Shown here piece by piece: positions 19,511-63,638 of a DNA stretch of 64,000 nt (its first letter is position 1; each line of letters opens with the position of its first letter). Origin of the DNA: Mastigias papua (Eukaryota; Cnidaria; Scyphozoa; Rhizostomeae; Mastigiidae); the NCBI GenBank assembly GCA_964019165.1, contig OZ025267.1:441501-505500 (forward strand), written 5' to 3'. Both the position numbers and the translations under genes were made by a program. The notes under the pieces are model-generated. The model ran no database searches and had not been told where the DNA came from. It saw only the letters and a program-made list of their open reading frames with translations.

Positions 19511-22500
19511 ATGGCAACTTTTGATATAATAGAAGATGCCAATATCTACGAATCTATAGCAGGAAGACAGAGTGATGATGAAATCATTTATTCAGTACCA
19601 GAACCTATTGTTATACGCGGTGTTGGACATCTAACTTTGTACGTTAGACAACTTTGGTGTTGTTTTTCTTTCCAACTCATGACTCTGTCGTTGTTGCGTG
19701 TCAGTTATCCATCTTTGGAAACATATTATCTAGTAATTACTGTATATATTTTTTATATGATCCCAATGTAGAAGACGCGTTGTAGGGTTATTTTAAACCT
19801 AGTAGCCAAAAATTGAGTTAAGGAAGTACGACATCAGAAGTAGATTGATTTTAAAGTTGTTCGCAAACAATGGTAGCTGCTTGCCAAATGGTTCTGGCTT
19901 GTGTGTTCTGTTTTTTTATATTGGCGTTGTACTTTGTTATTCAACTTATAAATAGCTATTGACTTTATATAAGTTAACTTCCGTTCTTTCATATCAATTC
20001 TTCATAAACTAGAGTACAACTTGCCTGTTGTTTTAAGGTCAATCAAAGGAGCAGTATACTACAATTTACTTTGGACAAGTTGTAGCAGTGTTAATGAATT
20101 GTCATAGAATGTATTGGATACCTCTTACCGCTCAGTTTGGGCGAGTCTGTAAGTTAAAGATGGATGAAGGTAGAGATGTAATATAAATGTGATGTACTTG
20201 TCATCAAGAGATATTGCCATACAGATTGTTTTTTACTACAATTTATTAGTCTTTGACTTAGGACAATTAACTTTTTCAATTTGCTAGATTTGGTCTCTCA
20301 AATAAATTTGACACTGAATTCCCAACAAGTCTCTCTGGGAAGGTAAGATGTATTGATTTCTTAACTTCCTTTTGTGCACAAATAACAATTAGGTTTTGAT
20401 CTCTATGTGCTACATGTTAGCAGGGATCATTAAGATGTGTGCCATTGCCACTTACAGCTGCACAAAATGATATGCTGTAGATTTCTATAGGCACCATTGA
20501 TCTTAGGCTACTTACTTACATATGTTAGTGTAACTGCAATTAGTACAGCTGAGAATTCAGTAAGAGAAAGCTTTGCAAATTATCTGGATCTATCCATTTG
20601 TAGCATCCTGATATGTGCTTGCTAGCATAAAGCACTTTTACTGAGCCCTGCATACTTGTTTAAATATGTAAGGGAAAATGAGTATGTTGTTTACTGTCAC
20701 ATATCTGTGGACACTTGTTCTTACATTGCAGAGTTTGAAAATATTTTTTAAATAAGATAAAACACTTGTAGAGGCATTTTAATTTAACAGTCTTGCATTT
20801 TAGAATGTATTTAATGGTATCTTTTTATGCAGAAATCGAGAAACAAATACCTGTATATAGAAAGTAGGAGCTGGCTATCATGCTTAAAGAAAATTTTGAC
20901 AGTACTTCTATGATTTTAGTCAGCAATTTCTGTAGGTAAAAAGAAGAGCAGATAAATAAGTGAATAAAATGAAATAAAAGATAATTTTGGGAAATTAATA
21001 AATGACAGTTTATTTGTTAGAAACAAAGTGATAAATAAGTTTGGAAACTGCAACTATAGTGAGTTTAGACCTATGGATTTATGTTATAATGCACAGCTTT
21101 TTACTTGGTATATTGCTCATTGAGAAACATTTCACCTGCTTTTCTTTTTCCTTCAATTTATCCAGTACCATGGCCATGGGAAGGTATAGAGAAGCAGTTG
21201 CCTGCCCTCCCCCTAGCTTTTGGTGAAGTATGGCCATCAGAATTCCTTTACAATTGAATTGAATGATGTCTCATTGGCATATTTGCCCTTTGAAAGAGAG
21301 ACTGACAAACAATTCTCCAAGTTCCTATTTGCTAATGGTATGCATGACATTTTGGTGATGCATGACATTTTGGTGATGCACTCGAGGCCCATGTAAATGG
21401 TGTGACTCAAAGATTTTCCTTAGGGCACATCATTGAGGAGTATTACTATAGAATGAGATTTGGGGATAAATACATAATATAAGATTGCACAAAAGAAGCA
21501 GTAGAAATTTCTGTTTTAGTATTCATCTTTTCAATACATTGATATTTTTTTATCATTATTCATAATTGATGGAGGGTTTATATTATAATAATTTTAGCTT
21601 GCTCCAGAGGAATTTGAGTCAATACTTAAAAAAGTGAATAAAATCCTTGGAAGGACATTACCATTGAACATAAGATGGCTTTTGTGTGGGTGCATATGTT
21701 GCTGTTGTACACTTGGTCTGTCTATGTGGCCTGTAGTCTACCTGAATAAACGGGTAAGCTGCTTACATAGCTACTTGTGCAAGAATTTCTTATCTACTCC
21801 TATTTTTAAGCTTTTTGGATTATCTTTTGGTGTTTAATGCTGTGGGAAGTATCCCAAATATCTAAGGGAATTTTGGAGATTATGGTAGCTATTACATCAT
21901 ATTTTTTATTGTCATATTGAAAGCAAGATATTGATAGCTTTTCATTTTGACTTGTTTGTTTGCCATCAGTTTGTTTTCTGTCAGTTTCAGTTAACTCTTG
22001 TTTGCATGGACAAAGTCTTGTTAATGCACTGTTTTGCATTGCGGAAGATAAATTCTCATGCAAAATACCTATTATGCAATTAAACTTGTTTACTTTCTAG
22101 TCCAGAGTTGCAATTGAGAAGTTGTTAGATGCTGAAAATCACAATATTTTCCACAAGGTATTTTGTTTTCACATGTACAAGACCTTTGAGTAGGGATAAA
22201 CAACTTTCTTATCAAAAATTCTTGAAATAGGAGCTGGGAAGTCAAACCTAATTGAACTAGGCCCATTGGTTATAGTGTTTATATTATCAAGGTATATTGT
22301 CATGTAAATTTGATTATGCAAATGTAAAACTTTTATTATTGACATTTGTAAAGCCATTTTTACAGTTTTAAATTTCATACATATTCTCTATTAATGATGG
22401 TTGATGCATTATTCTCTAAAGTTCCTTCTTCCCTATTTCTAGCTTGGATTGCACTGGAAATTAAGCAAGCAACTTGTGAATTCAAGTAATATGATGGAAT

Positions 22501-23118
22501 ATGTATGTATTAATTGAATTTGAATTTGAATTTGTTTGCACATTTCATACTATTAACTAACATCTATCAGATATATTTTGGAGCGTAATTCAAGGTAAAT
22601 TTATAGAGTCCCAGTGGGAATTCAAGAAAGCAGTTATTAGAAACATTATAAAGAGCATGTTTTGAAATGAAAATCATGGAAAGTGAATGACTCAATTGGA
22701 ACTCAAACTCAAAAAGCCTTGACTTTGTATATTGATTGCTTAACTACTTAACATATTAAGGATTACTACTTAATGTATTAAGAATCTGCAAATGTGTAAA
22801 ATAGTTACGTTCAAAGATTCCAGCATAACAGTTGTAGATAAATTCAGACTACAAGAAAGTTTGGTGAAAGTATTATTCTCTAGGCTAAATATTGCTGGCA
22901 TCCTGTTATGCTATCTTGGACTTAGATTGAAATCCACAGCAAACCAGTATCTCTGTGGACTTATAGCTGAAATTCTCACCTTATTTGTCAATGTAATTAA
23001 AAAGTTGTTAAAATTCTTGGAACATTTTTGCCTTGAACTTCACTTCTATCATCATTTTATTTTGTAGGTGATGCTAATAGAATTTCGGCCAAAACAAATA
23101 ATATATAAGCCAGATTGA
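19511..23118 (+). CDS. CHIC: CHIC (cysteine-rich hydrophobic domain) protein, 6 exons
   Basis: CHIC proteins are small palmitoylated peripheral membrane proteins of vesicles, Golgi and plasma membrane (family knowledge). Coding exons: 19511-19638, 20288-20342, 21598-21753, 22101-22157, 22443-22502, 23068-23118. They sum to 507 nt (168 aa; human CHIC2 is about 165 aa), all phases consistent. The acidic N-terminus is followed by [20 protein letters not shown]. Exon 3 carries the hallmark [20 protein letters not shown], a hydrophobic segment with seven Cys that is the expected lipid-modified membrane anchor. HWKLSKQ, NNMMEY-like SSNMMEY and IEFRPK complete the family pattern up to the final PD. 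In vertebrates CHIC1 sits beside CDX4 and CHIC2 beside GSX2; here it lies 4.4 kb upstream of a Cdx-like gene, on the same strand. Confidence 0.96.
21341..21380. repeat. Direct duplication of a ~19-bp unit in CHIC intron 2
   Basis: ATGCATGACATTTTGGTG occurs twice in tandem. Confidence 0.7.
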
Positions 23119-61700: not shown

Positions 61701-63223
61701 TCAGTCTAAATTAATTCCATGCCTGTGATGCTTAATCTAAGCGCATTTTGAGTAGCAGTTAATGTGCCTGGATCGCTCAAGGTATGAAACTACAATTTGC
61801 TATATGATGTAGTTTCTATGTGAACAAAGAGACTGCTAGCTACCAGACTACGAGCATCATTAACACAGGAGAAAAGACTATTTTTATCAGAAATATAATA
61901 AATTGCATCCAAGTTGGAGTTGGAATTATTATAATTGAGGAATGAGTAACTTTTCTTTCTTGATTTTTACCTAACATACCAATCACAAATAAAATTGAAA
62001 CTTAATTTCTTACAGTGTCTTTATTCCTATGTATACGTATGTGACAAGCATGGTAAAAATTGCTTTTTGAGTTATCAACTTTGGCTCTTTATGAAAGTTG
62101 TTTCTGGTCAGAAATAAAATGGTTATTTAGGAATTTAAGAGATAATTACCGTAGAAAAACGTCATTCTGAATTGATCCATGAGAGAACCATTAAAACACT
62201 TCTGAAGAACTACGTATGATAATGTTCCCTAAAATTAACAAAGGGTATAAAAATTGGACGATGTTTAAAGTATTATCTACTAGAAGTTTCAAATATATGC
62301 TATGTAGTAAAACGGGCTTTGGTACCTAGCCTCTTATTGAACATAAGAAAGGTAGTTCCTCATTAGGAGACGATCAATAACTGGTAGTACATAAATAAAT
62401 TCTTAAAAGAATATCAAAGGTTTCCTAAAAACTAATTGTCAGGAATAAATTCATAGAAAATGACCACCATCCCAAACATGCTGAAATTGCAATAGGAGCA
62501 TCATCCACCAATACAACTAGTCTTAAGCTATGAAGGAGTAGATTTGACCAACATAACCCCCTGGTTGATGTATCTCTTTTTGATATTACTAGACAGGTGT
62601 ATGGAAGGAGTTTATCGTCAGTGTTATTTTCTGAGAGGTCAAAGATAATGCAAAGTATGTAATAAAAGATAGGTAATAAAGTTTAGCCAAAATGTCATAG
62701 TCCATAATCTAGTGAGCATGAAAAAAACATGTCTTTTGAAACTATTTTTTGCAATTTTTAAAAAAGAATGGATAGGGAAGAAATATGATCGAAAGGTAAT
62801 TGTTAGAAAGGAACATGTATTATGTAAAATTACATAATGTGATTTTAAAAAATAGAAAAAATTGCTGGTAATACAAAAATATAAAAGGGTTTGTCATCAG
62901 CAGTATGGATACGATACCATTAAACGGAGCGGTTCATGATGCTACCAATCAAACAATAGTGTGAATACCAACAATAGGATTGGATAATTTTATAATAGCC
63001 GGTTGCACGTGGATGCTTTTTTAGCGGCAGAGGGATTCTTTATAAGCAGGTTGATTATGCACTGAGCGTCAGTTTCAGTCGCCGCTGACTGGAGAGGGTC
63101 GATATTAGTTACTGGTGATCTATAGAAGCATTGAACAAGACAACAAAACAACATTTGCTTGAATAAAAACGCATCTTGTAAGTACAACTGAGAGATAAAA
63201 TAAGGTTCAAAAGTGACAATTCA

Positions 63224-63638
63224 ATGATGTCCAAGAGCTTCCTTATTGACACGATCATCCATAACAGGCCAAAAGTCGAGCACATCGATGCACCACCACC
63301 ATTAATTCGCAATGATCAATCGACTCCAGAGCAGTCAAGAAATTCTAGCCCGGTCACTCCCGCTCACTCACCACCGCCACACCACGAAAAAAGGTACAAC
63401 TCAGAGTCGACGACATATTGTACATGCTGTATGCCAAAATCACAGCAGTCTATGTGCCAATGTCAAATGTGCACAGATAATTCACCAGTCAGTCCAATAT
63501 TTCCAAGTTATCAATTCTGTTCGCCATACAGAGATAGCTGTATAAGTTCCAGGCACCAGTTCGAGCGAGATAACCACAGAATGTCATATCCAACGATGAA
63601 TATCTCCGATTGTCCACCTCATCTTTTACCATCTTACA
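63224..63638 (+). CDS. Gsx: Gsx (ParaHox) first coding exon; homeobox exon lies beyond window
   Basis: Gsx is a homeodomain transcription factor of neural and endodermal patterning (family knowledge). Start ATG 63224, or 63227 directly after it; the second gives MSKSFLIDTII, matching the conserved SNAG-like N-terminus MSRSFxVDSLI of Gsx proteins. At residues 66-83, TYCTCC...CQCQMC matches the Cys motif (CVCPLC) I recall from vertebrate Gsx. Pro/Ser-rich segments lie between. The frame runs on past a strong donor at 63638 (ACA|GTAAGT), giving 138 residues plus one base; the open frame beyond (to 63742) reads as intron. The homeodomain was not found in the remaining 360 bp. Same strand as Cdx, 20 kb downstream of it. 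Confidence 0.83.

Follow-up and report, generated by a model that had tools for sequence, protein, structure and literature searches.

What flanks the ParaHox homeobox genes in a jellyfish, and what is the homeobox gene that stands there between CHIC and Gsx? These questions are raised by a stretch of 64,000 nucleotides from the scyphozoan Mastigias papua (the window; C1:441501-505500, where C1 is contig OZ025267.1 of a genome of 346.8 Mb in 172 contigs), on which CHIC, a homeobox gene and the first exon of Gsx follow one another on the plus strand. We read the locus, with a probability of about 0.85, as the left half of a three-gene medusozoan ParaHox cluster together with its flanks. The features that carry this reading are the following, in window coordinates except where C1 is given.

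19511-23118, plus strand: CHIC, six exons, 168-aa open frame, every intron GT-AG
19511-19638, 20288-20342, 21598-21753, 22101-22157, 22443-22502, 23068-23118, plus strand: the exons of CHIC
27551-27956, plus strand: exon 1 of the putative third ParaHox gene (the third gene below), with a phase-1 donor and a W-containing hexapeptide-like motif, QYHWIRDLSQ
42885-43090, plus strand: exon 2 of the third gene, with a whole unsplit homeobox and the stop
63224-63638, plus strand: exon 1 of Gsx, ending at a GT donor, with the N-terminal motif MMSKSFLIDTII
C1:505716-505999, plus strand: exon 2 of Gsx with the homeobox, beginning 216 bp beyond the window
C1:567243 to 572164, minus strand: pieces of HPF1, extent judged by eye

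The CHIC protein is full length, with an Erf4 domain that carries a CCCC cysteine string. It is matched by the Erf4 profile PF10256 (E 3.3e-11) and, among the matches listed, is 83% identical to the CHIC of Rhopilema and 77% to that of Aurelia, the E value and both identities having been obtained from an exon join in which about four residues, at the first junction, are wrong. The third gene spans 27551-43090, and its two exons, joined GT-AG in phase 1, encode 203 aa including a homeodomain (profile E 9e-21). When the two Gsx exons are joined, the protein shows, again among the matches listed, an identity of 82% with an Aurelia protein and of 45% and 41% with the named Gsx proteins of Podocoryna and Hydra. 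Both a Gsx-type homeodomain and the N-terminal motif M-S-x-S-F-x-[IV]-D-[ST]-[LI]-I are present, and the Gsx group has a support of 85/98 in the homeodomain tree described below, just above the line of 80. The Gsx homeobox is unsplit and lies in the last exon with a single intron ahead of it, which matches the arrangement of sea star Gsx, where an unsplit homeobox in the last exon is preceded by one intron (PMC3710244; here and below, cited papers are represented by parts of their text). Among the matches listed, the named sequences nearest to the three window proteins come from Aurelia, Rhopilema and hydrozoans. The preliminary description of this DNA, which had placed CHIC, a homeobox gene and Gsx exon 1 in line on the plus strand, is borne out in its coordinates and strand, and the Gsx homeobox that it expected to the right of 63638 is present, with a homeodomain match that starts 269 bp beyond the window end. 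Its naming of the middle gene as Cdx is not supported.

To the right of the window, 55 kb after Gsx, a further homeobox lies at C1:561034-561204 on the plus strand, where the homeobox exon alone was identified. Its homeodomain has His at position 44 and the sequence NRRMK, and its best match in the PDB is PDX1 (89.4 bits), followed by Ftz (84.1), Antp (80.8) and CDX-1 (65.8). From the His at position 44 and the PDX1 match, we conclude that this gene is Xlox-like; the Xlox group in the tree has a support of 62/0. HPF1 lies on the minus strand about 6 kb past the Xlox homeobox (PF10228, E 5.6e-25) and is followed by an SLC6-type transporter near C1 585 kb. In order on the plus strand, then, stand LIN37, CHIC, the third gene, Gsx and Xlox, with HPF1 next on the minus strand, and 77 kb of C1 holds three complete homeoboxes, each of them on the plus strand. 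The two flanks, CHIC and HPF1, give the cluster its direction: CHIC - third gene - Gsx - Xlox - HPF1.

Both the three-gene ParaHox cluster of jellyfish and the position of CHIC beside the chordate cluster are already known. A cluster of Gsx, Pdx/Xlox and a third gene has been described from Sanderia malayensis, Rhopilema esculentum and Aurelia, with the orthology of the third gene to Cdx left open (Nong et al., PMC7305137), and the present locus resembles these in having the three together in a scyphozoan. The main text of that paper leaves the order of the third gene unstated, and a whole-word search of it finds neither CHIC nor HPF1 nor POMP; such a search likewise finds no CHIC or HPF1 in the available text of PMC1779807 and PMC9444052. 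Our third gene is very probably the third ParaHox gene of that jellyfish triplet. Like the coral and anemone pair (PMC6214176), the locus has Gsx linked to Xlox with HPF1 on the flank. In that paper HPF1 (CD027) and POMP flank coral Gsx-Xlox, and the available text describes no third gene and has no occurrence of CHIC, whereas here POMP was not found in C1 391.5-610 kb (218 kb; best E 4.2). Like the amphioxus and chordate arrangement CHIC-Gsx-Xlox-Cdx (PMC5803294, PMC3698058), it has CHIC on the Gsx side, and Gsx and Xlox point in the same direction. Unlike that arrangement, it has an extra homeobox gene on the CHIC side of Gsx, and after Xlox there is no further homeodomain match on C1 for 2.0 Mb, up to a partial one at C1:2,591,677.

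The linkage of CHIC to ParaHox genes in a non-vertebrate, which the preliminary description had put forward, is thus seen here directly; that CHIC flanked the ParaHox cluster of the chordate ancestor was already in print (PMC3698058), as was the amphioxus order CHIC-SYCP1-Gsx (PMC5803294). In the open-access literature, with supplements, Hui et al. 2008 and the Hydractinia genome paper outside its scope, we found no report of CHIC beside ParaHox genes in a cnidarian. We compared contigs across species by eye, over the best 120 rows each for Gsx and CHIC. In the anemone Exaiptasia diaphana, CHIC (P0177) and Gsx (P0051) are each on a contig of 521,662 bp, where order and distance are not visible. 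In the bivalve Solemya velum, Gsx and CHIC are each on a contig of 133,535,218 bp with gene numbers 22 apart, the numbering being assumed to follow position. Five named species are common to the CHIC and Gsx listings, and Exaiptasia and Solemya are the two that agree; the Hydra Gsx row states no contig, and the Gigantopelta CHIC and Gsx rows are on differing contigs, but the row from the Gsx list bears a Hox3-type homeodomain. CHIC therefore lies near Gsx in more than one phylum, as judged from this window, from the shared contigs of Exaiptasia and Solemya and from amphioxus in print. It probably flanked the ParaHox genes before the split between cnidarians and bilaterians.

Human CHIC1, as the preliminary description states, adjoins CDX4. 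Such adjacency is no proof of an ancestral neighbourhood of CHIC and Cdx, because the loss of Gsx and Xlox from that chromosome would bring the two together. The human regions on chromosomes 4, 5 and X have been described as degenerate clusters (PMC2723086).

To what family, then, does the third gene belong? In a whole-protein search, an Aurelia gene, Eleutheria Cnox-4, a Clytia gene and further close relatives came first, followed by generic Hox proteins. Its homeodomain carries the pattern of the Cnox-4 proteins (DP[TA]MRSRP..., RRRRxE[IL]A and NRRVKERK), and in a tree of 51 homeodomains and sixty columns all eight Cnox-4 rows, including the third gene and Eleutheria Cnox-4, form a medusozoan group with a support of 100/100. 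By its sequence, the third gene is a member of this medusozoan Cnox-4/'Cdx' group. It thus shares with Cnox-4 of Eleutheria and CheCdx of Clytia (we infer that P0010 is CheCdx) the homeodomain group and the DP[TA]MRSRP...KERK pattern and differs from them in the N-terminal region, and linkage to Gsx was not seen for the hydrozoan copies. Four Cnox-4 proteins, P0007-P0010, two of them named hydrozoan, start with M-[VI]-D-[ST], a start that recalls the last part of the motif of Gsx, F-x-[IV]-D-[ST]-[LI]-I, and is absent from the window gene and its near relatives; this may be a weak hint of a Gsx origin.

The tree was drawn from seven of the ten relatives P0002-P0011 (P0003, P0005 and P0006, which have no homeodomain, were left out), 14 Gsx rows from the best 120 of 1886 matches, nine Hox-like homeodomains of this genome chosen by eye, and typed references. 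One row, P0097, is Hox3-like; it was relabelled for the tree and is still in the Gsx set of the identity comparison. Within the genome, 50 of 87 homeodomain matches were inspected, and 30 of the other 37 cover fewer than 50 of 57 positions.

The third gene does not group with Cdx in this tree. Its mean homeodomain identity is highest with Gsx, at 58.4% (in a set that includes the one Hox3-like row), followed by Xlox (54.6%), bilaterian Hox (53.7%) and Cdx (48.0%), so that Cdx is the lowest of the three ParaHox families. In the PDB, the homeodomain scores 68.8 bits against GSX2, 67.3 against Scr, 58.5 against PDX1, 58.2 against CDX-1 and 57.5 against CDX-2; the top row, an engrailed two-domain chain at 78 bits, is the sum of two homeodomains of 42 bits. 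The Caudal_act domain (PF04731) matched none of the three Cnox-4 proteins tested, whereas the human CDX2 control was matched at E 7.3e-32. A search with PF04731 against the whole genome gave no match at E<=1; since that search had no positive control, it shows little. The homeobox of the third gene is whole, whereas that of sea star Cdx is split by an intron (PMC3710244). The third gene also lies on the CHIC side of Gsx and on the same strand, while deuterostome Cdx lies beyond Xlox and is inverted. Because the order in chordates is CHIC, Gsx, Xlox, Cdx, a Cdx at this place would need to have moved from beyond Xlox past Gsx. No such move is called for if the gene arose by tandem duplication at the Gsx end, which favours an origin separate from Cdx, without proving it. 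The preliminary description had contrasted a head-to-tail Cdx and Gsx here with the inverted Cdx of chordates, and this contrast lacks a secure footing because the naming of the middle gene as Cdx is unsupported.

Whether the third gene arose within Medusozoa by tandem duplication, on the Gsx side of the cluster, we judge an even matter, and we prefer this origin to descent from a common gene with bilaterian Cdx. Orthology with bilaterian Cdx, which would give the ancestor Gsx, Xlox and Cdx and would place the jellyfish Cdx now on the CHIC side of Gsx, we hold to be possible though unlikely, and a number of our own observations weigh in its favour and against the reading that we prefer. K55-E56-R57-K58 is common to the third gene and Cdx. 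A W-motif stands ahead of the Cnox-4 homeodomain, in a Cdx-like form, EWMR, in the relative P0005, and Gsx here has no W-motif. Among the residues invariant in the eight Cnox-4 rows, two recur in Cdx only, two in Gsx only and one in Xlox only. For the hydrozoan members, the lead of Gsx over Cdx in identity is just 1.6 to 3.3 points, and the corresponding BLOSUM lead for Cnox-4 survives in just 77% of column resamples. The approximately unbiased (AU) test leaves a union of Cnox-4 with Cdx unrejected (p 0.56), as it does unions with Gsx (p 0.60), with Xlox (p 0.43) and with all ParaHox (p 0.31). Among published trees, Chiori et al. put Clytia CheCdx and Eleutheria Cnox4 in the CDX group, unsupported (PMC2626245); in the work of Steinworth et al. 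an octocoral group stands next to bilaterian Cdx with a bootstrap of 20 (PMC9825252); and an anemone paper gives 'Gsx and 2 Cdx' in one place and 'Xlox and Gsx' in another (PMC9444052). On the side of linkage, the Clytia contigs that carry Gsx and Cnox-4 differ in length, and Aurelia Cnox-4, Gsx and CHIC are on Seg2077, Seg2665 and Seg878, so that no linkage is visible in either animal. The genome also shows no canonical Cdx elsewhere: a CDX2 homeodomain query gave 38 matches with identities of at most 59%, and there was no Cdx-type homeodomain among 37 of the 38, in a frame-by-frame search in which an intron-split homeobox could score low. Against Cdx orthology stand the identity of 48.0%, the rank of the third gene in the CDX2 query (10th, with the Xlox of the cluster 3rd), the unmatched Caudal_act domain, the unsplit homeobox and a position opposite to that of bilaterian Cdx relative to Gsx and CHIC, with the extra rearrangement that this requires. 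In addition, by summed BLOSUM62, bilaterian Cdx is nearer to the jellyfish Xlox (170.2) than to Cnox-4 (152.3), though just 83% of column resamples bear this out, and the Nematostella Xlox gene NVHD065 falls with Cdx in some trees and with Xlox in others (PMC1779807).

The tree itself puts the Cnox-4 group, on a long stem, weakly beside Antp/Scr/Ftz and not beside Gsx (94/82, 93/85 and 83/43 along the path), a further point against a Gsx-end origin and one that speaks for a Hox-type or other ANTP gene that was relocated into the ParaHox region and is not ParaHox by descent. In the same direction, Cassiopea Cnox4 is listed among Hox genes by Steinworth et al., who reject eight of 98 sister-group hypotheses and no more (PMC9825252), the PDB score of Scr is close to that of GSX2, and the summed BLOSUM62 of Cnox-4 is higher for Antp/Scr/Ftz (175.7) than for Gsx (165.8). 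Such a relocation nevertheless seems improbable to us: the third gene stands beside Gsx on the same strand with no gene recognised between them (open reading frames inspected, not a full annotation), and it is treated as part of the ParaHox cluster in the jellyfish work (PMC7305137). The preliminary description had made its account depend on a ParaHox placement of the homeobox at 42885; on this the tree leans weakly outside, and the AU test does not reject the grouping of all ParaHox with Cnox-4. The sixty homeodomain columns fail to decide the origin of the third gene. That the linkage of CHIC and ParaHox genes is an artefact of assembly is barely credible, even though the base-level reading comes from one assembly only: in a second jellyfish, Cnox-4 exon 1 (P0003, 71% identity) and Gsx exon 1 (P0040, 91%) are each on a contig of 191,131 bp, triplets are in print (PMC7305137), and in Nemopilema Xlox/Cdx comes straight after Gsx in the same orientation (PMC6441219).

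As a fuller account of the tandem origin, we tentatively suggest, at somewhat less than even odds, that CHIC-Gsx-Xlox-HPF1 is a four-gene block inherited from the cnidarian-bilaterian ancestor, with CHIC giving its polarity. In our main reading, too, CHIC and HPF1 are unrelated neighbours and have probably been attached since before the cnidarian-bilaterian split. On the fuller account, the third gene would have arisen by tandem duplication at the Gsx end of the cluster and would not be Cdx; the ancestral cluster would have had two genes; and Cdx would be a bilaterian product of the Xlox side. Gsx duplication is known in Xenoturbella (PMC11521371). The three homeobox genes encode ANTP-class DNA-binding transcription factors, which, judging from their named relatives, presumably regulate the identity of cells along the body axis or of nerve cells. 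As for CHIC and HPF1, they probably either ride along as passengers or host shared regulation.

The remaining features of the window lie within the third gene and to the left of CHIC.

31216-33051, plus strand: open reading frame of a Mutator-like transposase (PF20700, E 8.2e-60), within the 15-kb intron of the third gene
17133-17321, plus strand: LIN37 exon (tblastn with human LIN37 E 1.8e-10; PF15306 E 2.2e-14)
1764-1943, 6267-6584, 8519-8788, minus strand: partial myotubularin-related gene (PF06602, HCSDG motif, frames)

Thus a LIN37 exon and a myotubularin gene are both present on the far side of CHIC from the homeobox genes, where the preliminary description had placed them; its view that they extend the ancestral block finds no support here. 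On a 55-aa piece of the myotubularin gene, PF06602 scores 24.5 bits (E 1.5e-5), just below the cut-off of 25, and the HCSDG motif in the piece 1764-1943 backs the assignment. This gene, which we take to be MTMR6/7/8-like, probably extends leftward past the window edge. Between it and LIN37, at 9386-12279, a 178-bp tandem repeat forms two arrays in opposite orientation, which together make a large imperfect inverted repeat with arms of 1069 nt and 90% complementarity. Four large open reading frames in the flanks have no Pfam match, and a comparison with NCBIfam gave one match, judged to be chance. One of the four, a 270-aa open frame at C1:552652-553461 in the interval between Gsx and Xlox, could be a novel gene or an upstream Xlox exon. 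The same interval holds a long uninterrupted frame at C1:527616-531674 that looks, by eye, like the polyprotein of a retrotransposon; other elements have left fragments at about 524-534 kb and at 542489-543560, also judged by eye.

Elsewhere in the genome, the nine Hox-like homeodomains are spread over contigs C3, C11 and C22, and several are of posterior type; three lie within 28 kb on C3 and two within 38 kb on C11, with the remaining four apart. On contig C172, a mitochondrial COX1 gene has in-frame TGA at five positions of Trp, and AGA reads as Arg at six positions in conserved context; by eye, ATA is consistent with Ile and AAA with Lys. This code agrees with that of cnidarians and of certain other non-bilaterians and, to our knowledge, with no bilaterian mitochondrial code. 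The simple repeats and low GC of the genome might have suggested a cephalopod or another mollusc, a reading that is ruled out by the mitochondrial code together with the relatives of the proteins; the named relatives point to Medusozoa, nearest to Aurelia and Rhopilema, and thus most likely to a scyphozoan. A second, divergent COX1 is present on C121 (214,761 bp; for example at 135416-136780), where three copies are full-length and two partial, and both orientations occur. In the copy inspected, TGA stands once at a Trp site, and the best match in the PDB reaches 467 bits, compared with 761 for the COX1 of C172; the C121 gene may be that of a symbiont mitochondrion.

The Mastigias locus adds one more jellyfish to a kind of cluster that was known, and its contribution lies in the block CHIC - third gene - Gsx - Xlox - HPF1. 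If it is shared, the CHIC-Gsx-Xlox-HPF1 block would be an exception in the comparison of Nematostella with Rhopilema (PMC10719294), the four not having been seen together in any anthozoan. Homeodomain trees, including the present one, leave the identity of the third gene unsettled. With CHIC as a flank marker in common with bilaterians, the question of the third gene becomes one of gene order, which can be answered in chromosome-scale genomes.

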